The notes beneath the pieces are model-generated. The model saw only the letters and a program-made list of their open reading frames with translations, searched no databases and was not told the origin of the DNA. A stretch of 64,000 nucleotides of DNA, from positions 186,001 through 250,000 of the forward strand of contig NZ_JAMOIC010000001.1 in assembly GCF_024448895.1 (NCBI RefSeq). The letters run 5' to 3'. Numbering within the stretch: the stretch's first letter is position 1; the number at the start of each line of letters is the position of its first letter. A program made the position numbers and the translations under genes. This stretch comes from Stutzerimonas stutzeri. GTDB taxonomy: Bacteria > Pseudomonadota > Gammaproteobacteria > Pseudomonadales > Pseudomonadaceae. Shown in pieces: positions 27,833 through 42,849 of this stretch.

Positions 27833-29056
27833 ATGACCGATCTCCACAACCCTCCCCGCCCCGATCCGCAGGCGTGGGTCGCTGGCAGCGATGCGCCCGA
27901 AAAGCACGTCGTCAACCTCGGGTTCATGGCACTCACTGACGCTGCCTCACTGATCGTCGCGGCCACCCAGGGCTTCGCTCAGCCATATGGCCTGACGCTG
28001 AACCTGCACCGGCAGACGTCATGGTCGAACATCCGCGACAAGCTGATCGAAGGTGAGCTGGACGCTGCCCACGGCCTCTATGGGCTGATCTACGCCGTCC
28101 ACCTGGGCATTGGCGGCAGCCCACCGGTGGACATGGCAGTCCTCATGGGTTTGGCACAAAACGGCCAGAGCATCAGCCTGTCCAGTTCACTCAGGGCGGC
28201 GGGCGTGACCGATCCGGAGGCGCTGGGTCGCTGCGTGCGCCAGAGTGGTGCAAAGATCACCCTCGCCCAGACGTTTCCTACTGGCACCCATGCCCTCTGG
28301 CTTTACTACTACCTGGCAGCATATGGCATCCATCCGCTGAACGACGTGCGCACCTTAGTGGTGCCCCCCTCACAGATGGTTGCTCATCTACAGGCGCGAC
28401 GCATCGACGGCTTCTGTGCCGGTGAGCCGTGGGGCGCACAAGCTATCCAGGACGACATGGGTTTCACGCTGGCGACCAGCCAATCCATCTGGCCGGATCA
28501 TCCTGAGAAGGTGCTCGGCTGCACCCGAGCCTTTGTCGAGCAATACCCAAACACTGCTCGTGCGCTGATCATGGCGATCCTGGAGGCGAGCCGTTTCATC
28601 GATCAAAGCCAGGAGAACCGGCGTAGCACGGCTCACCTGATCGCCGGTCATGAGTATGTGAATGCGCCGGTTACCGCCATAGAGCCTCGCTTCCTCGGCC
28701 AATATGAAGACGGCCTCGGCCATGCTTGGCTCGATAAACATCCGCTGCGATTCTTTGGCGATGGCGAAGTGAACATGCCGTACCACTCCGACGGCCTGTG
28801 GTTCATGACCCAGCTCCGGCGCTGGGGCCTGTTACGTGAGGATCCGGATTACCTCGCCGTGGCCAAGAGTGTTCAGCAGACCAGCCTGTATCGTGACGCA
28901 GCCTCCGCTCTGAATATTCCAGTACCGGATTCACTCATGCGCAGCGCCCTGCTGATGGATGGCAGCCACTGGGATGGCAGCGATCCCGCAGCCTACGCCC
29001 GCAGTTTCGCCCTGCACGCGCTGGCAGATGCCCCCATGTCCTCCGTGCCTTGCTGA
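27833..29056 (+). CDS. nasS: Nitrate/nitrite sensor NasS (cytoplasmic NrtA-like)
   Basis: A 407-residue protein of the CmpA/NrtA substrate-binding fold but without a signal peptide, so it acts in the cytoplasm. Landmarks are VVNLGFMALTDAASLIVAAT, the ligand-pocket region TFPTGTHALWLYYYLAAYGI, and DGFCAGEPWGAQAI. In Paracoccus and Azotobacter NasS sequesters the antiterminator NasT and releases it when nitrate or nitrite binds. The nasT gene follows after 12 bases. Lack of a signal sequence plus adjacency to nasT separates it from the transporter protein at 30508. Confidence 0.93.
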   Translation: MTDLHNPPRPDPQAWVAGSDAPEKHVVNLGFMALTDAASLIVAATQGFAQPYGLTLNLHRQTSWSNIRDKLIEGELDAAHGLYGLIYAVHLGIGGSPPVDMAVLMGLAQNGQSISLSSSLRAAGVTDPEALGRCVRQSGAKITLAQTFPTGTHALWLYYYLAAYGIHPLNDVRTLVVPPSQMVAHLQARRIDGFCAGEPWGAQAIQDDMGFTLATSQSIWPDHPEKVLGCTRAFVEQYPNTARALIMAILEASRFIDQSQENRRSTAHLIAGHEYVNAPVTAIEPRFLGQYEDGLGHAWLDKHPLRFFGDGEVNMPYHSDGLWFMTQLRRWGLLREDPDYLAVAKSVQQTSLYRDAASALNIPVPDSLMRSALLMDGSHWDGSDPAAYARSFALHALADAPMSSVPC

Positions 29057-29068
29057 GAGGAGACAGCC

Positions 29069-29647
29069 ATGCTTCGCGTCCTCCTGATTGACGACACGCC
29101 ACGCAAGGTTGGCCGACTTCGCACCGCGCTGATCGAGGCCGGGTTCGAGGTCATCGAAGAATCCGGTCTGACCATCGACCTTCCCGAGCGGGTCGAGGCC
29201 GTTCGCCCGGATGTCGTGCTGATCGATACCGACTCACCCGGCCGCGACGTAATGGAGCAGGTGGTGATGGTCAGCCGCGACCAACCACGACCCATCGTCA
29301 TGTTCACCGACGACAACAACCCCGATGCCATGCGTCAGGCGATTCGTGCAGGCGTCAGCGCCTACATCGTCGAAGGCATCCAGGCCCAGCGCCTGAAACC
29401 GATTCTCGATGTCGCAATGGCTCGCTTCGAGAGCGATCAGGCGATTCGTGCGCAACTGCACGCCCGTGATCAGCAATTGGTCGAGCGCAAGCGCATTGAG
29501 CTCGCCAAGGGCATGCTCATGAAGATGCGCAGCTGCAACGAGGAAGAGGCCTACACCCTGATGCGCCGCCAGGCCATGAGCCGGCAGCAGAAACTGATTC
29601 AGGTGGCCGAGCAGATCATCGCGATGAACGATCTGCTGGGCCAGTGA
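29069..29647 (+). CDS. nasT: ANTAR-domain antiterminator NasT
   Basis: A 192-residue response-regulator-like protein. The receiver domain (about 1-120) keeps LLIDDTP and an acceptor-like Asp in VVLIDTDSP (about residue 53). The usual switch lysine is Glu (AYIVEG), so phosphorylation may not matter. The C-terminal ANTAR domain (about 130-190) has RKRIELAKGMLMKMRSCNEE and AYTLMRRQAM, the RNA-binding three-helix pattern. It should bind the dual hexaloop leaders found before nasF, nasA and nirB in this window and prevent termination. GAGAGGAG precedes the ATG. Confidence 0.95.
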   Translation: MLRVLLIDDTPRKVGRLRTALIEAGFEVIEESGLTIDLPERVEAVRPDVVLIDTDSPGRDVMEQVVMVSRDQPRPIVMFTDDNNPDAMRQAIRAGVSAYIVEGIQAQRLKPILDVAMARFESDQAIRAQLHARDQQLVERKRIELAKGMLMKMRSCNEEEAYTLMRRQAMSRQQKLIQVAEQIIAMNDLLGQ

Positions 29648-29693: not shown

Positions 29694-30114
29694 GGCCGAA
29701 TAAATTCGGCCGCTACGATCACTGCAGCTCGGCTGTCACTCGGTCCCCATGTAGGGGCTAACTTGTTCGCCCCATCGAGCCGATCGAGACCGGTCAGGTC
29801 ACGTGATGAACGAGTGGCCAGAGCAGCTATTCGCGCTGCTCCAGCGACCGACGGAACCCCGCAATCTGGCCGAATAAATTCGGCCGCTACAGACACTTCG
29901 GCTCCGCTATTACTCGGTTCCCATGTAGGGGCGAACTTGTTCGCCCAATCGAGCCGATCGAGACCGGTCAGGTCACGTGATGAACGAGTGGCCAGAGCAG
30001 CAATTCGCCGCCCTGCTCTAGCGACCCCGCATCCCGGCCGAATAAATTCGGCCGCTATAGACACTTCGGCTCCGCTATCACTCGGTCCCCCTGTAGGGGC
30101 GAACTTGTTCGCCC
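29694..30114. repeat. Tandem array of REP palindromes, period about 170 bases
   Basis: Inverted REP copies with GGCCGAA-TAAA-TTCGGCC begin at 29694, 29868 and 30036. Direct copies headed GTAGGGGC with GAAC-TTG-TTCGCCC begin at 29751, 29935 and 30093. Successive units are 174 and 168 bases apart. Between the palindromes, a stretch beginning ATCGAGCCGATCGAGACCGG is shared almost identically by two units, and CACTTCGGCTCCGCTAT by two to three. This is a tandem duplication of a REPIN-like element in the nasT / nasF gap. Confidence 0.9.
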
Positions 30115-30205
30115 GCCGAACAGCACGACCTCGCGTAAAACCTCTCTGACGCGATCCACGCCCGCAATCAGGCGAACCAAAACGGAGCCAGTTGATGCGA
30201 AGACT

Positions 30206-30350: not shown

Positions 30351-30367
30351 TTGGCAAGCCACTTGCA
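30351..30367 (+). promoter_or_regulatory. Putative sigma-54 promoter of the nitrate ABC transporter operon
   Basis: TTGGCAAGCCACTTGCA has GG and GC with the 12-base offset of -24/-12 promoters. Transcription would start near 30378, about 15 bases before the first hexaloop hairpin of the leader. Confidence 0.75.
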
Positions 30368-30392
30368 ATCTCTCCGATACCACGTCTTCGGG

Positions 30393-30434
30393 TCGCCAAC
30401 GGCGGTGATCGGGACGAATTGACAAAGGCGTCAA
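30393..30434 (+). promoter_or_regulatory. ANTAR-type dual-hexaloop leader (NasT target) of the nitrate transporter operon
   Basis: Hairpin P1 at 30393-30408 is TCGCC-[AACGGC]-GGTGA. Hairpin P2 at 30419-30434 is TTGAC-[AAAGGC]-GTCAA. Both six-base loops have A at position 1 and G at position 4, the rule known for ANTAR RNA targets. P2 shares bases 30424-30431 with the 5' arm of the following terminator, so the two structures exclude each other. Confidence 0.85.
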
Positions 30435-30483
30435 CGGTGCTCGCTCTGCTCACGCAGAGCGTTCGTCCGTTACGCCTTTTTTT
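30424..30483 (+). terminator. Leader attenuator terminator of the nitrate transporter operon
   Basis: AAAGGCGT and AACGG pair with CCGTT and ACGCCTTT, enclosing an inner hairpin CGCTCTGC/GCAGAGCG; a T run follows. It ends about 25 bases before the coding start, a classic conditional terminator. Confidence 0.85.
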
Positions 30484-30507
30484 CGTTTCGCGATTGAGGG
30501 ATGAATC

Positions 30508-31881
30508 ATGCGCAAGACTCGCCGTACGATGCTGAAAACGCTCCTGGCCAGCGTTGGATGTTCCGCCCTGCTGCAATTGGTACCGATGACTGTCTGGGCT
30601 GCCGAGCCTGAAAAGGAAGAACTCAAGCTCGGCTTCATCAAGCTCACCGACATGGCGCCGCTGGCGATTGCCTACGAAAAGGGCTACTTCGAAGACGAAG
30701 GTCTCTACGTCACGCTCGAAGCCCAGGCGAACTGGAAGGTCTTGCTGGACCGTGTCATCGATGGCGAGTTGGACGGCGCCCACATGCTCTCCGGCCAGCC
30801 GATCGGCGCGACCATCGGATTCGGCACCAAGGCCGACATCATCACCGCCTTCACCATGGACCTCAATGGCAACGCCATCACCATGTCCAACGCCATCTGG
30901 GAACAGATGAAGCCCCATGTGCCAATGGTGGATGACAAGCCGCAGCATCCTATCAAGGCCGACGCGCTCAAGCCTGTGATCGAGCAACTCAACGCCAGCG
31001 GCAAGTCGTTCAACCTGGGCATGGTCTTTCCCGTATCCACCCATAACTACGAGCTGCGCTACTGGCTCGCCGCTGGAGGTATCCATCCCGGCTACTACGC
31101 ACCGAACAAGGGCGACATCAGCGGCCAGATCGACGCCCAGGCGCTGCTCTCGGTCACCCCGCCGCCGCAGATGCCTTCGACAATGGAAGCCGGCACCATC
31201 CATGGCTACAGCGTGGGCGAGCCGTGGAACCAGCAGGCGGTGTTCAAGGGCATCGGCGTGCCGGTGGTAGCCGACTATGCGATTCGCAAGAACATGTCCG
31301 AGAAGGTTTTTGGCGTCTCGAAGGCGTGGGCCGAGGCGAACCCGGAAACCCACTAGCGCCTGGTCAAGGCGCTGATCCGCGCCGGCAAGTGGCTCGATGA
31401 AGACAACAACGCCAATCGCCAGGAAGCAGTGGAGATCCTCTCGCGCCCCGAGTACGTCGGTGCCGACGCCAAAGTGATCGCCAACTCCATGACCGGCACT
31501 TTCGAATTCGAGAAAGGCGACAAGCGTGAAGTGCCGGACTTCAACGTGTTCTTCCGCTACCACGCGACCTACCCCTACTACTCCGACGCCATCTGGTACC
31601 TGACGCAGATGCGCCGCTGGGGCCAGATCGCCGAAGCCAAGCCCGACAGCTGGTATCTGGAGACCGCCAAGCAGGTCTACCGCCCCGACATCTACCGCGA
31701 AGCCGCCGCCGCGCTGATCGAAGACGGTCTGCTGACCGCCGAAGATTTCCCCGCCGCAGACGAAGACGGCATACGCGAGCCGCTGGCCGACACCATCGAC
31801 GGCATTGCCTATGACGGGCACGCGCCCAACGCGTACCTCGAACAGTTTTCGATCGGCCTGAAAGGCGATACCACACTCTGA
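30508..31881 (+). pseudogene. Nitrate ABC transporter substrate-binding protein (NrtA/NasF type), interrupted by an in-frame TAG
   Basis: The periplasmic nitrate-binding component. The N-terminus carries a Tat-like signal (TRRTMLK, then a hydrophobic stretch to about residue 31). The body has [40 protein letters not shown] and [12 protein letters not shown]. After residue 282 (NPETH) the codon at 31354-31356 is TAG. The same frame then continues with [18 protein letters not shown] to a natural stop at 31881, giving a family-length 458 codons. A CAG-to-TAG change would explain it. The visible product lacks the C-terminal third and is probably nonfunctional unless the stop is suppressed or is a sequencing error. 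Confidence 0.88.
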
Positions 31882-31932
31882 TTCCGCCTACGGGAGCCTG
31901 CGCGGCTCCCGCCTTTAGGAGAGGACACGTCG

Positions 31933-32922
31933 ATGAGCAATCCAGCCGTCGTGCAGAACATCAAGCAAACACTACGGGCCGGCCGCCAGGCTCGCCTCAA
32001 GCGCTGGCTGCCGCAGGTCATCATGCCGCTGGTGGGCATCTTCGCCTTCCTGCTGTTCTGGCAACTCGTGGCAACCAACATCCAGACCAGCCTTGGCCAG
32101 TTTCCGGGCCCCAGCCAGGTAGCCGAGCAGTTCACGGGATTGGTCGATGCGCATGTCCAGTCGCGGGACAAAGCCGAGGCGTTCTATCAGCGTCAGGAAG
32201 ATCGCAACGCCGCCAAGTTGGCCAAGAACCCAGATGCCGAGGTGAAGATCCGCCCCTACACCGGCAAGCCGACTTTCTTCGAGCAGATCTTCACCAGCCT
32301 TTACACGGTAATGACCGGCTTCGCGATTGCCTCCCTGATAGCCGTGCCGCTGGGCATCGTCTGCGGGCTGAGCAAGACGGTGTACAGCGCGATGAATCCG
32401 CTGATTCAGATCTTCAAACCGGTATCGCCGCTGGCCTGGCTACCGCTGGTGACCATGGTGGTCAGCGCCGTTTATGTAAGTGACGACCCGCTGATGGCGA
32501 AATCCTTCGTCACCTCGGCGCTGACCGTTGCGCTGTGCTGCCTGTGGCCCACGGTGATCAACACCACGGTGGGCGTTGCCAACCTGGACAAGGACCTGCA
32601 GAACGTCAGCCGCGTGCTGCGTCTGTCGCCGCTCGGCCATGTGCGTCGCATCGTCCTGCCCGCTGCCATTCCGATGATCTTCACCGGCCTGCGCCTGTCG
32701 CTGGCAACCGGTTGGATGGTGCTGATTGCCGCGGAAATGCTGGCGCAGAACCCCGGCCTCGGGAAATTCATCTGGGACGAGTTCCAGAACGGCAGCTCCA
32801 ACTCGCTCGGCCGAATCATGGTCGCAGTGATCGTCATCGGCCTGATCGGCTTCGCCCTGGATCGCATCATGCTGATGCTCCAGCGCCGCGTGAGCTGGGA
32901 CAAGAACGCAGACCTGCGCTGA
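31933..32922 (+). CDS. Nitrate ABC transporter permease (NtrB/NasE type)
   Basis: A 329-residue inner membrane protein with one N-terminal helix (VIMPLVGIFAFLLFWQLVA), a long periplasmic-side loop rich in charges (about 60-115) and five further helices. The permease coupling loop is in SPLGHVRRIVLPAAIPMIFTGLRLSLATG, residues near 235-265. The loop after the first helix is typical of the nitrate/cyanate branch, distinguishing it from taurine or sulfonate permeases. AGGAGAGGA lies upstream. It follows the broken binding-protein gene by 51 bases in the same operon. Confidence 0.93.
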   Translation: MSNPAVVQNIKQTLRAGRQARLKRWLPQVIMPLVGIFAFLLFWQLVATNIQTSLGQFPGPSQVAEQFTGLVDAHVQSRDKAEAFYQRQEDRNAAKLAKNPDAEVKIRPYTGKPTFFEQIFTSLYTVMTGFAIASLIAVPLGIVCGLSKTVYSAMNPLIQIFKPVSPLAWLPLVTMVVSAVYVSDDPLMAKSFVTSALTVALCCLWPTVINTTVGVANLDKDLQNVSRVLRLSPLGHVRRIVLPAAIPMIFTGLRLSLATGWMVLIAAEMLAQNPGLGKFIWDEFQNGSSNSLGRIMVAVIVIGLIGFALDRIMLMLQRRVSWDKNADLR

Positions 32923-32933
32923 GGGAAACCACC

Positions 32934-33728
32934 ATGAACAATGCCCACCTCGAACTCACTGGCGTCGGTATCAGCTTCCCCACAGACAAGGGGCTCTATT
33001 GCGCGCTGCAGAACGTCAACCTGCGTATCGCCAAGGGCGAATTCGTCTCCCTGATCGGCCACTCCGGCTGCGGCAAGTCGACCGTGCTGAACATCGTCGC
33101 GGGGCTTTATCAAGCCACCACCGGCGGCGTGATCCTCGATGGCCGCGAGGTCAACGAGCCCGGCCCTGAACGCGCCGTGGTCTTCCAGAACCACAGCTTG
33201 CTGCCCTGGCTTTCCTGCTACGAGAACGTCGAACTGGCGGTGCGCCAAGTCTTCAACGGAAAGAAGAGCAAGCGCGAAATGCGCGAATGGATCGAGCACA
33301 ACCTCGAACTGGTGCACATGACCCATGCGCGTGAAAAGCGCCCAAGCGAGATTTCCGGCGGGATGAAGCAGCGCATCGGTATCGCCCGCGCCCTGGCCAT
33401 GCAGCCCAAGGTGCTGCTGATGGACGAGCCCTTCGGCGCACTCGATGCGCTGACCCGCGCGCACTTGCAGGACTCGCTGATGGAGATCCATGCGGACCTT
33501 GGAAACACTGTGATCATGATCACCCATGACGTCGACGAGGCCGTGCTGCTTTCAGACCGCATCGTGATGATGACCAACGGGCCATCGGCAACCATCGGCG
33601 AATTTCTCCGCGTAGAGCTGCCGCACCCGCGTGACCGCATGGCACTGGCGCATGACGCCCAGTACCACGCCTATCGGGCGCAGGTCTTGGAGTTTCTCTA
33701 CCAGCGCCAGCAACGGCCGGCTGCCTGA
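32934..33728 (+). CDS. Nitrate ABC transporter ATP-binding protein (NtrD/NasD type)
   Basis: 264 residues, cytoplasmic. Walker [10 protein letters not shown] is near residues 43-51, followed by the Q-loop [11 protein letters not shown], signature [15 protein letters not shown], Walker [16 protein letters not shown] and the switch histidine in [10 protein letters not shown]. The start is ATG 32934, with GAGGGAAA upstream. The same frame is open far back into the permease gene, but in a region already coding in another frame. This completes the nitrate/nitrite importer with the permease and the damaged binding protein. Confidence 0.94.
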
Positions 33729-33753
33729 ACAAGGGCCCTCCAGGAGCGGAAAT

Positions 33754-34833
33754 ATGACCATGGACAGAGCATTGACAAGCACGCCGCTGGCAATTGAAAC
33801 GCCGCGGGTGACCGAGACCGCTGTCGCTTTGAAGCCACACACTGACTGGCTGCTGCTTGCAGCCTGGTCGACGGCCTGTATCGCGGGGCTGTGGCAACAG
33901 CAGTGGCTGGCGCTCACCCTTGCCTGCCTGGCGGCGGGTTTACAGCTTTTGCAGCAGCGCAAACGACAGGGCCTCGATCATCCGCGGGAGGATCTGGTAG
34001 CCGCATTCGGTGCACAGTCGCTGCGAAACGCCCGCCTGCGCAGCGAAGTGCAGTTCGCCAGCGACGCGCTTGAACGCATGGCTGGCACAGCCGAGCACAG
34101 CAGCATCGATCAGGCCCAGCGGGTATTGGCGATCACCGAATCCAGCAAGGACTTGAGTCATAACCTCGACCGCGTCAGCACCCTTGGGCAGCAGGCCATG
34201 GAGGCATTTGCCGAGACGCATCGTGAAAGCGAGACCGGGCGCAACAGCGCCATGCGGGTCAGTGCCAGCATGAGCGACGTTCGCGAAAGCATGCAGCGAA
34301 CGGCCGATGCTGTCGGTCAGCTGATGCAGGACACCGCAGCCGTGGGCAAGGCCGCGCTGAGCATCCAGGCGGTTGCCAGGCAAACCCAGCTACTTGCGCT
34401 CAACGCCTCCATCGAAGCGGCGCGGGCCGGTGACCATGGTCGCGGCTTTGCCGTTGTGGCTGACGAAGTGCGCCAGTTGGCACTGACCAGCGACCGCGCC
34501 GCCCAGGACATCTACCGCGTAGTCGACACCACCGGACACACCGTGCGCCGCGTCGAGGCCGAAGTCGTCCAGCACAAACAGCTGCTCGAGCAGAGTGGCC
34601 AGCAAAGCAGCACCCTGGCGACCGAACTCGATCAGCTGGCTTTGCGCAGTCAGCGGAGCCTGGCTGAGCTGGACCACCTGTATGCGGCGCTCGAAGAGCA
34701 AAGACACAGCAACGGCCAGCTTCGCCAACAGCTCGATTACGTGGGAGCCGGCGTCCAGCTCCAGCGCGCCCAGGCCGAAGAGCTGCACAGCCTGACGCTC
34801 TACCTCACCCGCCTCAGCCGAACGGAAGCCTGA
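33754..34833 (+). CDS. Small methyl-accepting-chemotaxis-like protein in the nitrate operon
   Basis: 359 residues: two closely spaced hydrophobic helices (about 30-68) with almost no periplasmic loop and no recognisable HAMP or sensor domain, then a coiled-coil signalling region. The chemoreceptor hairpin tip is present as [28 protein letters not shown] (about 212-240), the part that contacts CheA/CheW. It therefore has output but no visible input. The next gene, two bases away, has a NIT-like sensor region and may supply it. CAGGAGCGG precedes ATG 33754. Confidence 0.87.
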
Positions 34834-34835
34834 CC

Positions 34836-35531
34836 ATGGAAGTATCGATCGCCCTCACCCTGGCTGCCTGCCTGGTATTGCTCGGCAACCACCTGAGCCG
34901 CGTTGCGGCGGAACGCCATCGCAAACGGCTCTGCGCAACCGATGTGCAAGCGCTTCAACACGCATTGGAGGTCCTGCAGTTCGTGCAGAAGCACCGCGGC
35001 CTCGGCGGTCAGCGCGAAGCAGCAGCGGCAGCGCAACGGCTGGAAGTCGCATCTCGCCTCGACCAGCTCTGGCACGACTGGAAGGGAGAAGAGAACCGGC
35101 CTGCGATGCGCGCCTTGTGGCAGGAGATTCGTCAGAACCCGGCGGATTTCGAGCCGCATTGCATCCTGATCGAACAGCTGCTGGAGAGCATTCATGTGCT
35201 TGAACTGCGTCTGGCCTTCCAGGGCAACCCGCAAGTGAATGGCATGTGCGAGGCCTGCCGCGCACTCGAAGATCTGGGCCGTCTGCGCGGCTTGGCAGTG
35301 CGAGCGGCCAACTTTGAACGCTGTCCGCTGGATATGCAGATCCAGATGCGCTACCTCTGCCAGCGCCTGGCCGACCCTATCGGCGGCAAGAGTCTCGGCA
35401 ACCTCATCGAACATCTGGAACGTAACCTGATCAACGCACCACGGGTCAGCCTGGCACCGGCCGAATGCTACGCGCTGATCACACCGATCATCGACGAGCG
35501 GCTGCGGGGCATTCGCCTCAGCATTGCCTGA
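34836..35531 (+). CDS. NIT-like (nitrate/nitrite-sensing type) protein, probable partner of the MCP-like protein
   Basis: A 231-residue helical protein with one N-terminal membrane helix (VSIALTLAACLVLLGNHLS). The segment LEVLQFVQKHRGLGG (about residues 45-60) and the later ALEDLGRLRGLAVRA (about 143-157) resemble the paired terminal motifs of NIT domains, which sense nitrate and nitrite in proteins such as NasR. No output domain is present. It begins two bases after the stop of the chemoreceptor-like gene. The NIT assignment rests on these two motifs and on context, not on a profile search. Confidence 0.72.
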   Translation: MEVSIALTLAACLVLLGNHLSRVAAERHRKRLCATDVQALQHALEVLQFVQKHRGLGGQREAAAAAQRLEVASRLDQLWHDWKGEENRPAMRALWQEIRQNPADFEPHCILIEQLLESIHVLELRLAFQGNPQVNGMCEACRALEDLGRLRGLAVRAANFERCPLDMQIQMRYLCQRLADPIGGKSLGNLIEHLERNLINAPRVSLAPAECYALITPIIDERLRGIRLSIA

Positions 35532-35573
35532 GGCGTGGAACAAATACCGGGATATTCCGCTGACCGTTCCGGC

Positions 35574-35601
35574 TTGGGGCCGGCGCACGGACGCGTACAA
35601 T
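35574..35601 (+). promoter_or_regulatory. Putative sigma-70 promoter of the thioesterase gene
   Basis: TTGGGG at 35574-35579 and TACAAT at 35596-35601, 16-base spacing, 55 bases before the start codon. It suggests that this gene is not part of the nitrate operon. Confidence 0.45.
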
Positions 35602-35656
35602 CCGCGTCCGCACGTCGCGCCAAACCAGCGCTTAGTATTCAGCCCACGAGATCACC

Positions 35657-36100
35657 ATGGCCCGCCTGACCCTGCAATTTCCGGAAGACCAGTTCTGCTT
35701 TACCACCCAACTTACCGTACGCATCACCGACATCAACGCCGGCAACCATCTGGCCAACGATTCCATGATCTCGATGATTTCCGAAGCGCGCGCACGTTTT
35801 CTGTTCGCCTACGGTATCGCCGAAACCAGTAAGGATGGCGGGGGCATCATCGTGACCGACCTGGCCACCACCTATAAAGCCGAGGCGCATGCGCGCGACG
35901 TGCTGCAATTCGAAGTCGGTGTTATGGACTTCAACAAGTACGGTGGCGATATCACTTTCCGCATTACACGCCCGGCTGACGACACATTGATTGCCATGGC
36001 CAAGTCCGGCTTCGTTTTCTACAACTATTTGGAAAGCCGCGTGGTATCGATGCCCACCGAGTTCGAAGCGAAATTCCCCAAGGTCAATCGAATCGCCTGA
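35657..36100 (+). CDS. Hotdog-fold acyl-CoA thioesterase-like protein
   Basis: 147 residues with the 4HBT hotdog pattern: VRITDINAGNHLANDSMISM (about 21-40, with the Asp and Asn-His region used in catalysis), a long central helix EARARFLFAYGI, and strands ending FVFYNYLESRVVSMP. Such enzymes hydrolyse acyl-CoA thioesters; the substrate is not apparent. It sits between two nitrate assimilation units but appears to have its own promoter, so a link to nitrate use is not implied. Confidence 0.85.
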   Translation: MARLTLQFPEDQFCFTTQLTVRITDINAGNHLANDSMISMISEARARFLFAYGIAETSKDGGGIIVTDLATTYKAEAHARDVLQFEVGVMDFNKYGGDITFRITRPADDTLIAMAKSGFVFYNYLESRVVSMPTEFEAKFPKVNRIA

Positions 36101-36123
36101 TACGCCCCGTTTCGAAGCACTGC

Positions 36124-36138
36124 GCACCACGGCTGCGC
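36124..36138. promoter_or_regulatory. Possible NtrC site upstream of the MFS nitrate transporter promoter
   Basis: GCAC-N7-GCGC, the same one-mismatch form as at 30206, about 64 bases upstream of the sigma-54 element. Weak alone; the recurrence is the reason to record it. Confidence 0.3.
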
Positions 36139-36201
36139 GCTTCAGGCCGGTTTCAGCGCGTCTCGAACGTCAGCAAAGCCCAGATTCCACCGCTTTAGCG
36201 C

Positions 36202-36218
36202 TTGGCACAGCTTCTGCT
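36202..36218 (+). promoter_or_regulatory. Putative sigma-54 promoter of the MFS nitrate transporter gene
   Basis: TTGGCACAGCTTCTGCT, with correct GG/GC spacing and near-identical to the nirB element. Together with the leader structures it accounts for most of the 338-base gap 36101-36438. Confidence 0.78.
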
Positions 36219-36230
36219 TAGGCAAGGCAG

Positions 36231-36270
36231 GTAGCCAAAGGCGGTTACTCACAGACATGACAAAGGCGTC
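36231..36270 (+). promoter_or_regulatory. ANTAR-type dual-hexaloop leader (NasT target) of the MFS nitrate transporter gene
   Basis: P1 at 36231-36248 is GTAGCC-[AAAGGC]-GGTTAC; P2 at 36259-36270 is GAC-[AAAGGC]-GTC. Both loops have A1 and G4. P2 bases 36262-36269 are also the start of the terminator stem, giving the same switch geometry as at the ABC operon. Confidence 0.85.
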
Positions 36271-36314
36271 GCGTTGCCCCGTTGAGATTGACGGTGGTTC
36301 GCGGCGCCTTTTTC
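36262..36314 (+). terminator. Leader attenuator terminator of the MFS nitrate transporter gene
   Basis: AAAGGCG and CGCG pair with CGCG and CGCCTTT around a 25-base loop, followed by a T run, about 125 bases before the coding start. Confidence 0.82.
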
Positions 36315-36438
36315 GTTTGGCCCCAACGAACAGGGGCGCGGGCATGGCTCGCATGGATTTGAGGCTGCCACCAGGCAGCGGGGCATTCCCCGACCGCCAG
36401 CTGGCGCGCCGGTAAAAACTTGTCTAGTGAGGTGTTCG

Positions 36439-37650
36439 ATGAATACGAGTTTCTGGAAATCCGGCCACACGCCGACGTTGTTCTCCGCCTTTCTCTACTT
36501 CGATCTGAGCTTCATGGTGTGGTACGTGCTCGGCCCCATGGGCGTGCAGATTGCCGCCGACCTTGGCCTGACCACACAACAACGCGCTTTCATGGTGGCT
36601 ACCCCGATCCTCTCCGGTGCGGTCCTGCGCCTGGTGTTGGGCGTACTCGCAGATCGAACGTCTCCCAAGACCGCCGGGCTGTTCGGCCAGATCGTAGTGA
36701 TCGCCGCCTTGTTCGTCGCTTGGGTCCATGGCATCCACAGCTATGAACAGGCCCTGCTGCTCGGCTTGTTCCTCGGCATGGCTGGCGCTTCTTTTGCCGT
36801 CGCGCTACCGCTGGCGTCCCAGTGGTATCCCCCGCAGCATCAGGGCAAAGCCATGGGCATCGCCGGGGCGGGCAATTCAGGAACCGTGCTCGCCGCGTTG
36901 TTCGCGCCTGTGCTGGCGTCCACCTTTGGCTGGAGCAATGTGTTCGGGCTGGCGCTGATTCCCCTGGTGCTGACCCTGATCATCTTTGCCAGCGTCGCCA
37001 AGAATGCCCCAAACCGTCCGGCGCCGAAGTCCTTCGCCGATTACATGAAAGCCTTGGGCGACCGCGACAGCTGGTGGTTCATGTTCTTCTACAGCGTGAC
37101 CTTTGGCGGCTTTCTCGGGCTGGCGAGCACCCTGCCTGGCTATTTCCACGACCAGTACGCCTTCGATCCGGTCAAGGCCGGCTACTACACCGCCGCCTGC
37201 GTATTTGCCGGCAGCCTGCTGCGGCCACTGGGTGGTGCGCTGGCCGACCGCATCGGCGGAATCCGTTCGCTGCTGGTCATGTACACCGTCGCCGCGGCGT
37301 GCCTATTCGTGGTTGGCTTCAACCTGCCCAGTTCGACGGCGGCGCTGGCGCTGTTCGTCGTTGCCATGCTCAGCCTTGGCGCGGGCAACGGTGCGGTGTT
37401 CCAGTTGGTGCCGCAGCGCTTCAACAAGGAAATCGGTGTGATGACAGGGTTGGTGGGTATGGCCGGCGGTATCGGTGGTTTCCTGCTCACCGCCGGGCTC
37501 GGTGCAGTTAAACAGGCCACCGGTGACTATCAGATGGGGCTCTGGCTGTTCGCCAGCCTGGGTGCACTGGCTTGGTTCGGGCTCTATGGTGTGAAGCGTC
37601 GCTGGAGAACTACCTGGGGCTCCGCCGCGATGACCGCTGCGCGCGTCTGA
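36439..37650 (+). CDS. nasA: MFS nitrate/nitrite transporter (NarK/NasA type)
   Basis: A 403-residue inner membrane protein with about twelve hydrophobic helices. Family landmarks are FDLSFMVWYVLGPMG in helix 1, RLVLGVLADRTSPKTAG after helix 2, and the nitrate signature-like segments GIAGAGNSGTVLAAL (about 140) and GMAGGIGGFLL (about 345). These glycine-rich motifs define the nitrate/nitrite porter branch. ATG 36439 is chosen because GAGGTG lies 6 bases upstream; an in-frame GTG at 36427 is less likely. With the ABC binding protein broken, this may be the main nitrate importer. Confidence 0.94.
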   Translation: MNTSFWKSGHTPTLFSAFLYFDLSFMVWYVLGPMGVQIAADLGLTTQQRAFMVATPILSGAVLRLVLGVLADRTSPKTAGLFGQIVVIAALFVAWVHGIHSYEQALLLGLFLGMAGASFAVALPLASQWYPPQHQGKAMGIAGAGNSGTVLAALFAPVLASTFGWSNVFGLALIPLVLTLIIFASVAKNAPNRPAPKSFADYMKALGDRDSWWFMFFYSVTFGGFLGLASTLPGYFHDQYAFDPVKAGYYTAACVFAGSLLRPLGGALADRIGGIRSLLVMYTVAAACLFVVGFNLPSSTAALALFVVAMLSLGAGNGAVFQLVPQRFNKEIGVMTGLVGMAGGIGGFLLTAGLGAVKQATGDYQMGLWLFASLGALAWFGLYGVKRRWRTTWGSAAMTAARV

Positions 37651-37733
37651 GTTCGAATACGCTGACCATGGGTAGGCCATAGGGCCTGCCTCCGCCGTCC
37701 GTTTCCCCTAGCGCGCCACCGGAGCATTGCCTC

Positions 37734-39407
37734 ATGCCGTTGCAGCTGTCGTTTGGCGAAGCCACCGCAACCGGCCCCCGCGAGGAGAACCAGGACGCCC
37801 TGCGCATCGTCACGCCAACGCCGGGCCTGGCAGCGAGCAAAGGCTCGCTGTTCGCGATTGCCGACGGCGTCAGCCAGTGCGCCGATGGCGGCCTCGCCGC
37901 TCGAGCTACCTTGCAGGCGTTGGCCACCGATTACTATGCGACGCCGGAAACCTGGACCGTCGCGCAGTCCCTCGACCGGCTACTCGTTGCTCACAACCGC
38001 TGGCTGCAGGCAAACGGCGGCGGCCAGCCACTGCTCACCACCCTGACCGCACTAGTACTGCGCGGGCGTCGCTTCACCCTCGCCCATGTTGGCGACGGCC
38101 GCGCCTACCGCTGGTTCGACGGTGAGCTGCAGCGCCTCAGCGAAGACCATGTGTGGGAACAGCCGAACATGCAGCACGTGCTCAAGCGCGCCATGGGCCT
38201 GGACCAGCATCTGGTGGTGGACTACCTCGATGGTGAACTGCGTCTTGGCGAATGTTTTGTGCTGCTCAGTGACGGCGTCTGGGCCAGCATTACCGAGGGC
38301 GATATCCAGAATGTCCTCCGTGCCGAGCCGGATCTTTCCAGCGCGGCCAAAACGCTGGTGAATCTCGCCCACCAGACCGGCAGCCAGGACAACGCCAGCG
38401 CTCTGCTGCTGCGTGTCGAAGAACTGCCGCCAGCGGCGTTGGCCGACTCTCTCGCTCAACTGGCGGACTGGCCGCTGCCACCCAGGTTGCGAAACGGCCA
38501 GGTATTCGAGGGCTGGACCATAGAGGCGTTACTTGCCGAGTCACGGCAGTCGCTGGTCTACCGGGTAAGCGACCAGCAAGGTCAGCCCTGGTTGCTGAAG
38601 ACCTTGCCGCCCAGCCGTGCTGATGAACCCGACGCCGGGCCGGCACTGCTGCAGGAAGAATGGTTCCTGCGGCGTGTTGCTGGCCGCCACTTTCCCGAAA
38701 CCCACGGCTTGTCTCAGCGTCAGCACCTGTATTACGTGCAGCGCGAATACAGCGGCCAGACCCTCGCTCAGCAATTCAGCCAGCACGGCCCGCTGGAATT
38801 AGCTGACTGGTTGCACCTCGCGCCACGACTTATCCGTGCGCTGGGCATGCTGCATCGGCGCAACATCCTGCACCGCGACATCAAACCGGAAAACCTTCAC
38901 CAGGCAGGCGACGGCGAGCTACGGTTGCTGGATTTCGGCCTCGCGTACTGCCCAGGCTTGTCCACGGATAAGCCACACACTCTACCGGGCACGCCGAGCT
39001 ATATCGCCCCCGAGGCGTTCGCCGGCGAACCACCAAGCCGCGAGCAGGATCTCTACGCGGCCGGCGTCACGCTCTACTACCTACTCACCGGACACTATCC
39101 CTACGGCGAGGTCGAGGCGTTCCAGCGTCCGCGCTTCGGCACTCCGGTGTCGGCCAGCCGCTATCGCCCCGACCTGCCGCAGTGGCTGGATGAAATGCTC
39201 AAGCGCGCTATTGCGGCCGATCCGGCTCAGCGGTTCGAAACCGCGGAGGAGTGGCTGCTGACTCTGGAACAGGGCGAACGTTTGAGTGCCGGCACAACTC
39301 ATCGGCCCTTGCTCGAGCGCGAGCCCTTGAAGGTTTGGCGCGGCCTCGCCCTACTCTCGCTGCTGCTGAATCTGATTCTGCTGGTATGGCTGGCGAAAGG
39401 CAGCTGA
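37734..39407 (+). CDS. PP2C phosphatase / Ser-Thr protein kinase fusion with C-terminal membrane anchor
   Basis: 557 residues. The PP2C-type domain (about 1-235) has ENQDALRIV, FAIADGVSQCADGG, LAHVGDGRAYRW and LLSDGVWASI, so the metal-binding Asp residues are in place. The kinase domain (about 260-525) has LLKTLPPS with the ATP lysine, ILHRDIKPENL with the catalytic HRD, LLDFGLAY, and APE in SYIAPEAF. The glycine-rich loop is poorly conserved. A last helix (LALLSLLLNLILLVWLA) anchors it. It follows the nitrate transporter by 83 bases and precedes nirB; from memory P. aeruginosa has the same order. Substrates unknown. Confidence 0.93.
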   Translation: MPLQLSFGEATATGPREENQDALRIVTPTPGLAASKGSLFAIADGVSQCADGGLAARATLQALATDYYATPETWTVAQSLDRLLVAHNRWLQANGGGQPLLTTLTALVLRGRRFTLAHVGDGRAYRWFDGELQRLSEDHVWEQPNMQHVLKRAMGLDQHLVVDYLDGELRLGECFVLLSDGVWASITEGDIQNVLRAEPDLSSAAKTLVNLAHQTGSQDNASALLLRVEELPPAALADSLAQLADWPLPPRLRNGQVFEGWTIEALLAESRQSLVYRVSDQQGQPWLLKTLPPSRADEPDAGPALLQEEWFLRRVAGRHFPETHGLSQRQHLYYVQREYSGQTLAQQFSQHGPLELADWLHLAPRLIRALGMLHRRNILHRDIKPENLHQAGDGELRLLDFGLAYCPGLSTDKPHTLPGTPSYIAPEAFAGEPPSREQDLYAAGVTLYYLLTGHYPYGEVEAFQRPRFGTPVSASRYRPDLPQWLDEMLKRAIAADPAQRFETAEEWLLTLEQGERLSAGTTHRPLLEREPLKVWRGLALLSLLLNLILLVWLAKGS

Positions 39408-39418
39408 GCGAATCGCGA

Positions 39419-39739
39419 TCAGATCGACATGCGCCGGACGATCAGCCCCTGGCGTGCAACGCGAACCAGTTGCCGCACGCAATCTCCGAGACGTTCTGTG
39501 CTCGGCGCCTGGATCACCGCCAGGTCGAAACTGTTGGACGCGAAGTGCGCCAGCGATTCATCCGCCCCGGTGAACTGAACCTGAAAGGCGCGTGGCTTGC
39601 CCCAGCGCTTCGGCCAGCCATCCAGATAACGCAACAGCGAGGGTTGATGGCTGCCGCCAAGGAGGATTTTCGGGTTGCTGCGGACCAGCCCACTTGTGAT
39701 TGGGGCCAAACGTAGAGGGGTGCGTTGTAGTGCATTCAT
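39419..39739 (-). CDS. Small conserved-looking protein of unknown function
   Basis: 106 residues from the ATG at 39737-39739. Codon use is strongly GC3-biased like neighbouring genes, which argues that it is real. The C-terminal part, SFDLAVIQAPSTERLGDCVR then VARQGLIVRR, reads like the last strands of a class I methyltransferase fold, but the SAM-binding half is absent, so activity is doubtful. No clear ribosome binding site; the frame is open up to 39865. It is convergent with the kinase gene, 11 bases apart. Confidence 0.65.
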   Translation of the reverse strand: MNALQRTPLRLAPITSGLVRSNPKILLGGSHQPSLLRYLDGWPKRWGKPRAFQVQFTGADESLAHFASNSFDLAVIQAPSTERLGDCVRQLVRVARQGLIVRRMSI

Positions 39740-40209
39740 TGGGAGAAGTTCCGCCTCAAAAATTCCGCTGGGCAGCGGTGGGAGGCGACACCGAACCAGC
39801 GCTTTAGCGGTATTTCGAAGCCGTGGCTCCAGGCGCCCCGCAAGTAGCTGACTAAATCGGCGCATGGGCGAAACAATAGAAAAGCGGGCCGGCGGCTGTC
39901 AACGGTCAATTTCGCCATGCAGCCCGCGGCCCCCTCCGTGATGGTTGGCTGAAGCCCACCAACAAGACTCGCAGCAGTCCACCGACGCACCAGTACTGCG
40001 CAGCTTGCTATATAGGGGTGCAGCTGCAAGTCGCTTCGGCCCGGTTGCGCAGGCTTGGCGAAACGATACGACAGCGCAGCATTACGTGCGCCTGTACGGG
40101 GTTCGCTCCGTGCCAGCGCCCGTAAGTGCTGGGCTTCGCGACGAAGACATTGCACAGGGCGACCTGCGCGCTACGGCTGACCGCGGCCAGCCGCTGAACC
40201 GCGATCAGG
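39740..40209. other. Intergenic region upstream of the nirB promoter
   Basis: 470 bases without a credible gene. A 13-base imperfect inverted repeat, GGGCCGGCGGCTG / CAGCCCGCGGCCC, lies at 39886-39932. The remainder may contain NtrC enhancer sites for nirB, but no good GCAC-N7-GTGC match was found. Confidence 0.5.
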
Positions 40210-40226
40210 TTGGCACAGCCTCTGCA
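40210..40226 (+). promoter_or_regulatory. Putative sigma-54 promoter of nirB
   Basis: TTGGCACAGCCTCTGCA with GG and GC twelve bases apart, 23 bases ahead of the first leader hairpin. Confidence 0.78.
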
Positions 40227-40248
40227 TTAGCAGGCTTACATAGGCGGG

Positions 40249-40304
40249 ACCTTCAACGTGGAGGGTTCGGCTCCGAATACGGAAAACAAGGACAAAGGCG
40301 TCCT
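40249..40304 (+). promoter_or_regulatory. ANTAR-type dual-hexaloop leader (NasT target) of nirB
   Basis: P1 at 40249-40266 is ACCTTC-[AACGTG]-GAGGGT; P2 at 40289-40304 is AGGAC-[AAAGGC]-GTCCT. Loops again show A1 and G4. P2 overlaps the 5' arm of the attenuator that begins at 40294. Confidence 0.86.
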
Positions 40305-40333
40305 CACTGGGAGATCAGTGGGACGTCTTTTTT
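40294..40333 (+). terminator. Leader attenuator terminator of nirB
   Basis: AAAGGCGTCC and CACTG pair with CAGTG and GGACGTCTTT (one bulge, one G-T pair) around a short GGAGAT loop, with a run of T residues. It ends about 65 bases before the nirB ATG. Confidence 0.88.
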
Positions 40334-40398
40334 CATTTCTGGATTTTCAAAAGCATGGCCAGGCGCAGCTGACCGCCAGGCCCGGCGCGGAGAACGGC

Positions 40399-42849
40399 AT
40401 GAAGAAACTCAAGCTTGTGATGATTGGCAACGGCATGGCCGGGGTGCGTACCCTGGAAGAGCTGCTCAAGCTCGCCCCTGAGCTCTACGACATCACGGTT
40501 TTCGGTGCCGAGCCCCATCCCAACTACAACCGCATCCTGCTTTCCCCCGTGCTTGCCGGCGAGCAGACCTTCGAGGAAATCGTCCTCAACAGTCTTGATT
40601 GGTACGCAGAAAACAACATCCGCCTGATGCTCAACCGCAAGGTGGTGGAGATTGATCGCGCCAAGCGCCGCGTGATCGCCTCGGACGGCACCGAGGCCGA
40701 GTACGACCGACTGCTTATCGCCACCGGTTCCAACCCGTTCATTCTGCCCATCCCCGGCAATGATCTGGAGGGCGTGATCGGTTATCGCGACATCGCCGAT
40801 ACACAGGCCATGATGGACGCTGCCAAGACCCACAAGCACGCGGTTGTCATCGGTGGCGGATTGCTGGGGTTGGAGGCTGCGAACGGCCTCAAGCTGCGTG
40901 GGATGGACGTGACAGTAGTGCACATCGGCGAGTGGCCGATGGAGCGCCAGCTCGACAAGACCGCCGGCACCTTGTTGCAGCAGGCGCTGGAAAGCCGTGG
41001 CCTCGCGTTCAAGATGCAGAAGCAGACTGCCGAGCTGATCGGCAACGAAGGGGGCCGGGTCCGCGCCGTGCGTTTCGCCGACGACGAAGTGATTGACGCG
41101 GATCTGGTGGTGATGGCCGCTGGCATCCGCCCCAACAGTGAGCTGGCCGAAAAATCCGGCATTCCTTGCAATCGCGGGATTCTGGTCAACGACACCCTGC
41201 AAACCTATGACCCTCGCGTTTACGCAGTCGGTGAATGCGCCAATCATCGCGGTACTGCCTATGGGCTGGTGGCCCCGCTGTTCGAGCAGGCCAAGGTTTG
41301 CGCTAACCACTTGGCGATGCTCGGCTTCTCCCGCTATCTGGGCTCGGTTACCTCGACCAAGCTGAAAGTCACAGGAATTGATCTGTTCTCCGCTGGCGAC
41401 TTTCTCGGCGGCGACGGTACCGAAACCATCACCCTCTCCGACCCAATCGGCGGCGTGTACAAAAAGTTGGTGATCAAGGACAACATCCTTGTCGGCGCCT
41501 GCCTGTACGGCGATACGGCAGACGGAGGCTGGTACTTCCGCCAAGTCCGCGAAGGCCACAACGTCAGCGAGATTCGTGACCACCTGATGTTCGGCGAGGG
41601 CGCCATCGGCGACACCGGTCACCAGGGCCAGAACAAGGCGATGGCCATGCCGGACAGCATGGAAGTCTGCGGCTGCAATGGCGTGTGCAAGGGCGAGATC
41701 GTCAAGGCGATTCAGGAACACGGTCTGTTTTCCGTCGACGACGTGAAAAAGCACACCAAGGCCGCCAGCTCCTGTGGGTCCTGCGCCGGTCTGGTAGAAC
41801 AAATTCTGATGAATACCGTCGGCGGCGCAGCTGATGTAAAGCCGAAAAGCGAAAAAGCCATCTGTGGCTGCAGCGACCTCAACCACGGCCAAGTGCGCAA
41901 AGCCATCGTCGACCACCATCTGATCAGCATTCCGGAGGCGATGAGCTACATGAACTGGCGCACCCCCAACGGTTGCGCCACCTGCCGCCCGGCACTGAAT
42001 TACTACCTGATCTCCTCCTGGCCGGGCGAAGCGAAGGACGACCCGCAATCGCGCTTCATCAACGAACGTGCCCACGCCAATATCCAGAAGGACGGCACCT
42101 ATTCGGTTATCCCACGGATGTTCGGCGGCGTCACCAATGCCGCCGAACTGCGCCGCATCGCTGACGTTGCCGACAAGTACAAGGTGCCCATGGTGAAAGT
42201 CACCGGCGGGCAGCGCATCGATCTGCTGGGCATCAAGAAGGACGACCTGCCCAAAGTCTGGCAGGACCTGGACATGCCCGACGGGCACGCCTACGGCAAA
42301 TCCATCCGCACCGTTAAAACCTGTGTCGGGCAGGAATTCTGCCGCTTCGGCACCCAGAACTCGACCGGGCTGGGCATCGATCTGGAGAAGGCGCTGTTCG
42401 GCATGTACTCGCCGCACAAGGTCAAGCTCGCCGTCTCCGCCTGCCCGCGCAACTGCGCTGAGTCGGGCATCAAGGACGTCGGCATTATCGGCGTCGATTC
42501 CGGCTGGGAGCTGTACATCGGTGGCAACGGCGGCATCAAGACTGAGGCCGGTGAATTCTTCGTCAAGGTCAAGACCGCCGAGGACGTCGCCGAATACAGC
42601 TTCGCCTTCCTCCAGCTCTACCGCGAAGAAGGCTTCTACCTCGAACGCACCGTGCACTACATGCAGCGCGTCGGCCTGGAATACATCAAGAAGGCCGTCC
42701 TGGAAGACGAAACCCGGCGCAAGGCGCTGGCGCAGCGACTGATGTTCTCGCTGACTTTCGAGGGCGACGGCTGGAAGAGAGTTATTGCCGAGCAGTCGCG
42801 TAAGAAAGAGTACGAAACGATCCAGTTGACCCAGATCGAGCCCGCTTGA
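40399..42849 (+). CDS. nirB: Assimilatory nitrite reductase, large subunit
   Basis: NirB reduces nitrite to ammonium with NAD(P)H through FAD, iron-sulfur centres and siroheme. From ATG 40399, with GGAG 6 bases upstream, it is 816 aa and begins MKKLKLVMIGNGMAGVRTLE. In order: FAD and NAD domains (VVIGGGLLGLEAANGL near 150; YAVGECANHRG near 280), two BFD-like [2Fe-2S] domains (CGCNGVCKG with CGSCAG near 420-465; CGCSDLNHGQ with CATCRP), then the siroheme/[4Fe-4S] part with cysteines in TCVGQEFCRFG and ACPRNCAESG (near 640 and 680). An open 774-codon frame on the other strand is a shadow. Confidence 0.97.
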   Translation: MKKLKLVMIGNGMAGVRTLEELLKLAPELYDITVFGAEPHPNYNRILLSPVLAGEQTFEEIVLNSLDWYAENNIRLMLNRKVVEIDRAKRRVIASDGTEAEYDRLLIATGSNPFILPIPGNDLEGVIGYRDIADTQAMMDAAKTHKHAVVIGGGLLGLEAANGLKLRGMDVTVVHIGEWPMERQLDKTAGTLLQQALESRGLAFKMQKQTAELIGNEGGRVRAVRFADDEVIDADLVVMAAGIRPNSELAEKSGIPCNRGILVNDTLQTYDPRVYAVGECANHRGTAYGLVAPLFEQAKVCANHLAMLGFSRYLGSVTSTKLKVTGIDLFSAGDFLGGDGTETITLSDPIGGVYKKLVIKDNILVGACLYGDTADGGWYFRQVREGHNVSEIRDHLMFGEGAIGDTGHQGQNKAMAMPDSMEVCGCNGVCKGEIVKAIQEHGLFSVDDVKKHTKAASSCGSCAGLVEQILMNTVGGAADVKPKSEKAICGCSDLNHGQVRKAIVDHHLISIPEAMSYMNWRTPNGCATCRPALNYYLISSWPGEAKDDPQSRFINERAHANIQKDGTYSVIPRMFGGVTNAAELRRIADVADKYKVPMVKVTGGQRIDLLGIKKDDLPKVWQDLDMPDGHAYGKSIRTVKTCVGQEFCRFGTQNSTGLGIDLEKALFGMYSPHKVKLAVSACPRNCAESGIKDVGIIGVDSGWELYIGGNGGIKTEAGEFFVKVKTAEDVAEYSFAFLQLYREEGFYLERTVHYMQRVGLEYIKKAVLEDETRRKALAQRLMFSLTFEGDGWKRVIAEQSRKKEYETIQLTQIEPA

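Follow-up and report, generated by a model that had tools for sequence, protein, structure and literature searches.

Hexaloop leaders ahead of three nitrate assimilation units in Stutzerimonas stutzeri are probable targets of the antiterminator NasT

Introduction

How could a single regulator act on nitrate uptake and nitrite reduction genes that lie in separate units of one cluster? The question is raised by a 64,000-nucleotide stretch of Stutzerimonas stutzeri DNA (NCBI RefSeq assembly GCF_024448895.1, contig NZ_JAMOIC010000001.1, positions 186,001 to 250,000 of the forward strand), hereafter called the window. Its genes are arranged in the order nasS, nasT, nrtABC, a gene for a methyl-accepting protein, two small genes, nasA (a transporter of the major facilitator superfamily, MFS), a phosphatase-kinase fusion, nirB, nasC, and cobA, where nirB, nasC, and cobA are names that we presume from the sequences rather than from a family search. 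The original prediction, made from the letters alone, placed an ANTAR-type RNA switch with two hairpins, P1 and P2, before the ATP-binding cassette (ABC) transporter nrtABC, before nasA, and before nirB.

With a probability of about 0.9, we consider that transcription of nrtABC, of nasA with the genes behind it, and of nirB with the genes behind it begins in each case at a sigma54 promoter, is attenuated by a terminator overlapping P2, and is released by NasT. In the absence of nitrate, NasS would hold NasT, and an intrinsic terminator with the P2 hexaloop in its 5′ arm would halt the RNA polymerase transcribing from the sigma54 promoter. In the presence of nitrate, NasT would be freed, bind P1 and then P2, and block P2 from joining the terminator, permitting the genes to be read. 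As judged from the sequence, the switches probably let the nitrate genes be read only when NasT is free. Binding of the three RNAs by NasT, nitrate as the signal, the operon borders, and an input from NtrC are what we infer from this arrangement.

Three leaders in one cluster

The 64 kb were scanned on both strands by a rule based on structure only, which demanded two hexaloops with A in the first and G in the fourth position (A1/G4), at least 4 bp in P1 and at least 3 bp in P2, at most 40 nt between them, a T run, and a T-tailed terminator arm covering the P2 loop. Exactly three matches were found, before nrtA, nasA, and nirB, coinciding in place and loop for loop with the predicted leaders (Table 1); 20 dinucleotide shuffles produced six matches altogether and at most two in any one shuffle. 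The minimum-energy fold of each leader consists of P1 and a terminator that absorbs the P2 loop (z-scores of -5.0 for nrtA, -4.9 for nasA, and -6.2 for nirB), so that folds and scan both display the predicted sharing of the P2 loop with the 5′ arm of a T-tailed terminator. When the 3′ terminator arm was removed, P1 and P2 both folded in the nasA and nirB leaders.

At the level of sequence, each leader shows the features of an ANTAR target, as had been proposed. The proposal that the same switch occurs three times holds for the layout of hexaloops and terminator, but not for the spacing, as the linkers between P1 and P2 are 8 nt (nrtA), 8 nt (nasA), and 20 nt (nirB), the last containing an inserted third hairpin, M, that the original prediction did not mention. 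A generic terminator scan, which requires an unbroken stem and a short loop, listed 14 terminators in the window versus 14.6 expected, and of the three leaders only that of nirB was among them.

Each leader is preceded by a sigma54 -24/-12-like promoter. The pattern TTGGCAMNNNNNYTGC has three matches in the window, one ahead of each leader, against an expectation of 0.25 for a pattern that was drawn from these very sites, and the sites conform to the sigma54 type TGGCAC-N5-TTGC with GG and GC 10 bases apart. When the relatives are taken together with the window, 151 of 151 nirB and nasA leaders are preceded by a GG-N10-GC site with a score of 8/10 or more, a count that has no random control, and the distance from the end of the site to the P2 loop is 64-90 nt for nirB and 42-48 nt for nasA. 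A sigma70 scan of the window remained at chance level. NtrC-type TGC-N11-GCA sites were not enriched in the window (32 versus 50 by chance), with two weak neighbors at 39986-40022. NtrC is reported to be required for nasS and nasT in S. stutzeri A1501 (PMC8443478), and an NtrC site is reported for Paracoccus nasT (PMC5424462).

Table 1. Coordinates of genes, promoter-like sites, and leader elements within the window
Feature	Position	Strand	Basis
nasS, soluble nitrate-binding sensor (NMT1_2 family), proposed NasT partner	27833..29056	+	Pfam PF13379, E 2.6e-93; adjoins nasT
nasT, receiver and ANTAR antiterminator	29069..29647	+	PF00072 and PF03861
Sigma54 -24/-12-like promoter, nrtA unit	30351..30366	+	TTGGCAAGCCACTTGC
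nrtA leader P1, loop AACGGC at 30398-30403	30391..30410	+	Fold, structure scan; R1 51.2 bits
nrtA leader P2, loop AAAGGC at 30424-30429	30419..30434	+	Structure scan
nrtA leader terminator, 5′ arm over P2 loop, T tail	30424..30483	+	Minimum-energy fold; sequence
nrtA (nasF-like), binding protein	30508..31881	+	PF13379; open reading frame (ORF) list
Sigma54 -24/-12-like promoter, nasA unit	36202..36217	+	TTGGCACAGCTTCTGC; overlaps 5′ end of Rfam narK match
Rfam RF03032 narK RNA match, nasA leader	36204..36272	+	53.6 bits, gathering 43.2
nasA leader P1, loop AAAGGC at 36237-36242	36230..36249	+	Fold, structure scan; R1 48.1 bits
nasA leader P2, loop AAAGGC at 36262-36267	36258..36271	+	Fold, structure scan
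nasA leader terminator and T tail	36262..36313	+	Fold; sequence
nasA, MFS transporter	36439..37650	+	PF07690
Rfam RF00625 P11 match, nirB leader	40199..40327	+	74 bits, gathering 70
Sigma54 -24/-12-like promoter, nirB unit	40210..40225	+	TTGGCACAGCCTCTGC
nirB leader P1, loop AACGTG at 40255-40260	40247..40268	+	Fold, structure scan; R2 57.3 bits
nirB leader middle hairpin M (UCCG-AAUA-CGGA)	40272..40283	+	Folds
nirB leader P2, loop AAAGGC at 40294-40299	40289..40304	+	Fold, structure scan
nirB leader terminator and T tail	40294..40333	+	Fold, generic terminator scan; sequence
nirB, assimilatory nitrite reductase (name presumed)	40399..42849	+	ORF list; relatives match at 62-95% by tblastn

Conservation and covariation in relatives

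Eighty named loci were collected with the MFS protein (L numbers denote loci), the closest named relative being that of S. zhaodongensis at 98%. With the window included, the P2 motif lies ahead of nirB in all 75 loci that have a nirB start (six have none) and ahead of nasA in 76 of 81 loci; two of the five others (L050 and L071) still have a leader by the structure scan. The nrtA-nrtB pair is present in seven relatives, one of whose records begins inside nrtA, and the leader is found in the other 6/6.

Leaders gathered by the P2 motif alone were arranged in alignment A1, comprising 30 dual leaders (nrtA and nasA, near-duplicates removed), and alignment A2, comprising 46 nirB leaders. The first-position A and fourth-position G of the P1 loop are invariant in both (30/30 and 46/46). 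In alignment A1, 95.2% of the cells are paired and covariation reaches 0.398 versus 0.169 in shuffled alignments (0/500 shuffles reach it), with changes on both sides in four pairs of P1 and one of P2. In alignment A2, covariation is 0.160 versus 0.093 shuffled (again 0/500), with such changes in six pairs of P1 and two of M, and P2 is invariant. The expectation that the stems vary while pairing is kept was thus borne out for P1 in both the nrtA/nasA and the nirB sets, and covariation across relatives supports the predicted P1 hairpin. Covariance model R1 scored 51.2 bits on the nrtA leader and 48.1 on the nasA leader of this genome, and model R2 scored 57.3 on the nirB leader and weakly (21) on that of nrtA. 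A search for a fourth leader in this genome gave no strong match, the next best R1 match reaching 18.6 bits.

NasT and leaders in the family

As predicted, nasT lies in the same region and encodes a protein with receiver and ANTAR domains. Pfam families and adjacency define the NasS-NasT pair, in which a protein of the NMT1-like nitrate-binding family adjoins the receiver-ANTAR protein. At E 0.001, NasT is the only protein of the genome that matches ANTAR; 14 control genomes were likewise matchless, so the search is not shown to be able to find other ANTAR proteins.

Among 148 genomes of the family, R1 has matches in 104 (E 0.001), R2 in 101 (E 0.01), and NasT in 106 (E 1e-20). NasT and a leader are found together in 105 genomes and neither in 40; one genome has NasT alone and two have a leader alone, one of the latter being 78% complete. 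These counts bear on the alternative that the leaders are plain constitutive attenuators, with regulation residing only at the sigma54 promoters through NtrC. P1 lies outside the terminator but still covaries and keeps its A1 and G4, and of the 42 family genomes in which NasT has no match, 40 also have no leader, which makes this alternative very improbable.

The nirB leader of L180 (genome G046, with no NasT match) keeps P2 and has no A1/G4 P1 by the rule, perhaps as decay after loss of NasT. Two NasT matches were found in nine g12 genomes (G011, G070, G078, G086, G094, G101, G136, G141, and G146), and in G011 the second is located beside an NrtA-type leader.

Small RNAs P11 and NfiR

The nirB leader matches the Rfam family P11 and the nasA leader matches narK RNA, both above gathering (Table 1). 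The P11 model gives 22.9 and 19.3 on the other two leaders, below its gathering score of 70, and the narK model gives 21.1 on the nirB leader, under 43.2. Rfam types P11 as a gene and narK as a cis-regulatory element, the model of which pairs P1 only. Both models begin with, or soon reach, a sigma54 promoter sequence of the TGGCAC type, a stretch that should not belong to the RNA.

NfiR of S. stutzeri A1501 is described as a predicted 54-nt RNA before a nitrite reductase gene and a homologue of P11, with its start at a C 29 bp past the sigma54 site; pairing of NfiR with nifD mRNA and an effect on nif expression have been reported (PMC6606865). P11 has been reported to act on maco-1 of Caenorhabditis elegans (PMC10977744) and is said in a 2025 paper to regulate the nitrogen assimilation operon of PA14 with NirB, NirD, and NasC (PMC12080996). 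In five Stutzerimonas-type relatives (L009, L012, L015, L016, and L017), a C stands at the 29th base past the sigma54 site, and the 54-mer beginning there spans both P1 and M, with its last base inside the P2 loop; L024, the sixth examined, is off by one base. The loops in this set, as in the nasS leader set and the nasA and nrtA distance set below, were found by a rule demanding AA and G4 and are therefore no test of these bases, for which the invariance in alignments A1 and A2 serves. By this correspondence, NfiR and P11 would be pieces of a NasT leader.

Alternatively, the nirB leader may be mainly a gene for a trans-acting small RNA (sRNA), its place before nirB being secondary. Such a role would agree with the filing of P11 as a gene in Rfam and with the reported pairing of NfiR with nifD (PMC6606865) and action of P11 on maco-1 (PMC10977744). 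However, the P2 motif precedes nirB in 75/75 loci, the terminator in the window absorbs that hexaloop, and the published geometry of NfiR falls on P1 and M into the P2 loop in 5/6 of these relatives. Deleting the RNA would also remove the nirB switch, and overproduction could titrate NasT, so that the published phenotypes considered here do not separate the two readings. We regard a mainly trans-acting role as quite unlikely.

Evidence against NasT control of all three units

Several observations weigh against release of all three units by NasT. Without its 3′ arm, the nrtA leader folds P1, but in the minimum-energy structure a different hairpin replaces P2, and the same leader stays under the narK gathering score (30.9 versus 43.2). 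P2 of the nasA leader has three Watson-Crick pairs and one G-U pair, the weakest P2 stem of the three. P2 and the M stem of nirB vary little, so covariation hardly tests them, and one of the five measures for alignment A1 (further pair types) was not above shuffles (253/500). The count of NasT and leader co-occurrence is uncorrected for shared ancestry. In EutV, an additional 20 nt between P1 and P2 is reported to have abolished antitermination in vitro (PMC8934654), and the nirB linker measures 20 nt. According to unpublished data quoted in PMC8443478, a nasT mutant of A1501 keeps nitrate uptake, yet does not grow on nitrate, and narK of Bradyrhizobium, which has predicted NasT hairpins, is reported to have risen instead of fallen when nasT was mutated (PMC6759348). 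These last two remarks imply that a predicted hairpin is not proof of NasT control.

Only the nirB leader may be a working NasT target, with the two transporter leaders weakly bound or serving another purpose, as the retained uptake of the A1501 mutant (unpublished, PMC8443478) and the weak P2 stem of the nasA leader would suggest. On the other hand, A1 and G4 of P1 are invariant in 30 nasA and nrtA leaders, where P1 also covaries. Denitrifiers have other nitrate importers, which may hide an effect on uptake. We find a restriction to nirB unlikely and prefer NasT control of all three units.

Leaders before nasS-nasT and the wider regulon

The P2 motif is also found within 260 bases upstream of nasS in 27 of the 62 loci with a nasS start, ranging from L033 to L081 (as in L039, upstream of nasS at 7748); the match in L026 is really the nrtA leader and was dropped, which reduced the count from 28/63 with the window included. 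Mostly, these nasS leaders have a sigma54-like TGGCATATGCCTTGC, a P2 loop that reads AATGGC or AAAGGC, and, close upstream of nasS, a T-tailed terminator. By the rule, 24 distinct leaders have a P1, of which 18 carry the loop AACGGC or AACGAC, and two have no P1. The arrangement suggests autoregulation, in which NasT would raise its own synthesis. No P2 motif occurs within 260 bases upstream of nasS in the window or in those of L002-L025 that were examined. Upstream of nasS in L002, a sigma54-like TGGC-N7-TTGC is visible despite the lack of a P2 motif.

Further possible targets were seen in 20 stretches with 23 R1 matches, picked mostly for lying away from the best match of their genome, where the genes behind the matches were named by eye (from the first ORF residues or the bases after the start codon) and not by family search. 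Away from the nasA leader, five matches precede a molybdopterin oxidoreductase of 1340-1380 residues (L123, L124, L127, L128, and L130), which by its start sequence we take to be probably an assimilatory nitrate reductase. Five more have the same leader and a similar start codon context, the ORF picker having chosen another frame, and the remaining matches lie before NrtA-like exported proteins (four), nasS (three), and nasA (five). One far match (L131, G047) is in apparent coding sequence, probably false, and was excluded as a leader. Four R1 matches each occur in 10 of the 148 family genomes, and single genomes reach four R1 matches and one R2 match. This suggests that NasT governs reduction as well as uptake by two routes, and that many relatives also place its synthesis under its own control.

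The inserted hairpin of the nirB leader

M was surveyed in 145 nirB leaders (75 from the named set and 70 from family genomes), corresponding to 115 distinct sequences, and its stem is CCCG/CGGG in most relatives. Of the distinct leaders, 80 carry an A1/G4 hexaloop in M, 10 have G4 without A1, two another hexaloop, 18 another hairpin, and five no hairpin by the rule, where a single pattern defined the classes and also admitted a few odd matches (GCAGCC and CGATAG). The 23 distinct M hexaloops have A at position 1 in 15, G at position 4 in 21, and A at position 5 in 20, and positions 2, 3, and 6 vary. P1, M, and P2 are all part of the minimum-energy fold in 36 of 58 distinct nirB leaders.

Measured between the last base of the P1 loop and the first base of the P2 loop, the gap is 16-20 nt in 68/68 distinct leaders of nasA and nrtA. 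In nirB leaders whose M is of the A1/G4 class it is 34-36 nt (67 of 80), and the four nirB leaders without M that were measured have 20-28 nt. As the excess in nirB approximates the length of M (14-16 nt), the hairpin looks inserted into a leader otherwise spaced as the dual leaders are. For some of the 115 leaders, the P1 finder in the survey failed or picked a wrong loop (a gap of 12 in 10 rows, where M was probably mistaken for P1, and several rows without P1), and its gap figures are consequently only a guide.

Spacing by M matters because of the EutV result above and the proposal that EutV binds successively, first P1 and then P2 (PMC8934654). When folded, M could be a spacer keeping P1 and P2 near each other; with an A1/G4 loop, it could instead be a stepping stone for NasT. 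The conserved A1/G4 loop favors such a relay where it is present, and the variants of M, in the clade of the window and in clades with G or C at position 1, indicate that other forms are tolerated and favor a spacer there. In most relatives examined, the extra nirB hairpin looks like a further NasT docking site.

In the clade of the window, the M hairpin is kept and an A1/G4 loop is lacking. M as an ANTAR loop was rejected in the window itself, as the loop is AAUA or, one pair shorter, GAAUAC, and M of L002-L008 is likewise outside the A1/G4 class. In 7 of 19 distinct rows from genus g5, a U-A pair replaces one C-G pair of the M stem. The covariation of this stem in alignment A3 (20 of 22 listed leaders, L181 and L202 being left out) was discarded, since it concerns a single pair in one genus, perhaps one event, and its both-side-change count was reached by 491/500 shuffles.

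A tentative extension, which we see as possible rather than likely, is that in most NasT-bearing Pseudomonadaceae the nirB leader (P11/NalA) is a three-hexaloop relay from P1 through M to P2, that the short RNAs P11 and NfiR, released from this leader by cleavage or termination and carrying P1 and M, are NasT decoys, and that together with the nasS leader the circuit is self-amplifying. If so, M would answer the distance limit of ANTAR antitermination and provide a natural test of successive binding, and titration of NasT could account for effects that have been attributed to pairing with other mRNAs. The nirB leader with its inserted hairpin offers a direct testbed for the ANTAR hand-off model.

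Relation to known systems

This kind of switch is already known from NalA, eut, and Bradyrhizobium. According to a review (PMC12830290), NasT binds the nirBD leader NalA of Pseudomonas putida and Pseudomonas aeruginosa, which shares with the present nirB leader the gene, the regulator pair, the sigma54 promoter, and the leader hairpins; here, in contrast, the cluster has two more leaders of the dual type, one ahead of the ABC transporter and one ahead of the MFS transporter. Several ANTAR dual-hexaloop attenuators at one locus are described for eut of Enterococcus faecalis (four EutV targets, 2012; PMC3369931), where the sensor is another one and linker length is critical, and the accounts available in part describe no inserted middle hairpin. 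The NasR leader of Klebsiella nasF also involves nitrate-responsive ANTAR antitermination with A1 and G4 loops (PMC3369931), whereas NasR is a one-protein sensor with NIT and ANTAR domains. For Bradyrhizobium, several predicted NasT hairpins are reported (PMC6759348). Of the claim that three targets in one cluster were a finding from this sequence, the number therefore stands and novelty in kind does not, given eut, Bradyrhizobium, and the multi-leader genomes of the family. Some of the leaders may already be among the predicted ANTAR RNAs tabulated in the supplement of PMC3369931.

NfiR resembles the nirB leader in preceding a nitrite reductase gene, in being a P11 homologue, and in a geometry that falls on P1 and M in relatives; it differs in being reported as a trans-acting regulator of nifD, and PMC6606865 contains no mention of the word NasT. 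The Rfam families agree with the leaders in that those of nirB and nasA match above gathering, and differ in being typed as gene and cis-regulatory element and in including promoter sequence. In a literature search with most subscription papers outside its reach, we found no account of NasT acting on an nrtA leader in Pseudomonas relatives, no evident NasT leader of nasA, no mention of a link between narK RNA (RF03032) and NasT, no report of nasS-nasT autoregulation, and no mention of a third hexaloop in ANTAR leaders. The present analysis suggests a function and a regulator for the Rfam families P11 and narK and would make P11 and NfiR, two widely discussed sRNAs, parts of a nitrate switch.

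Other features of the locus

The nrtA-like gene behind the first leader has an in-frame TAG at 31354-31356, its frame being otherwise open to 31881, and the three relatives examined that have the full-length gene (L002, L006, and L026) show no such stop. The TAG is either a true nonsense change or a sequencing error.

Behind nrtABC, positions 33754-34833 encode a protein with a methyl-accepting signaling domain and no sensor domain recognized by Pfam, followed at 34836-35531 by a 231-residue protein without a Pfam match. The two possibly have a role in nitrate chemotaxis.

Between nasT and the nrtA leader, at 29860-30125, there are two near-repeats of a palindromic element (GGCCGAATAAATTCGGCC ... 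GGGGCGAACTTGTTCGCCC), which resembles repetitive extragenic palindromic (REP) sequences.

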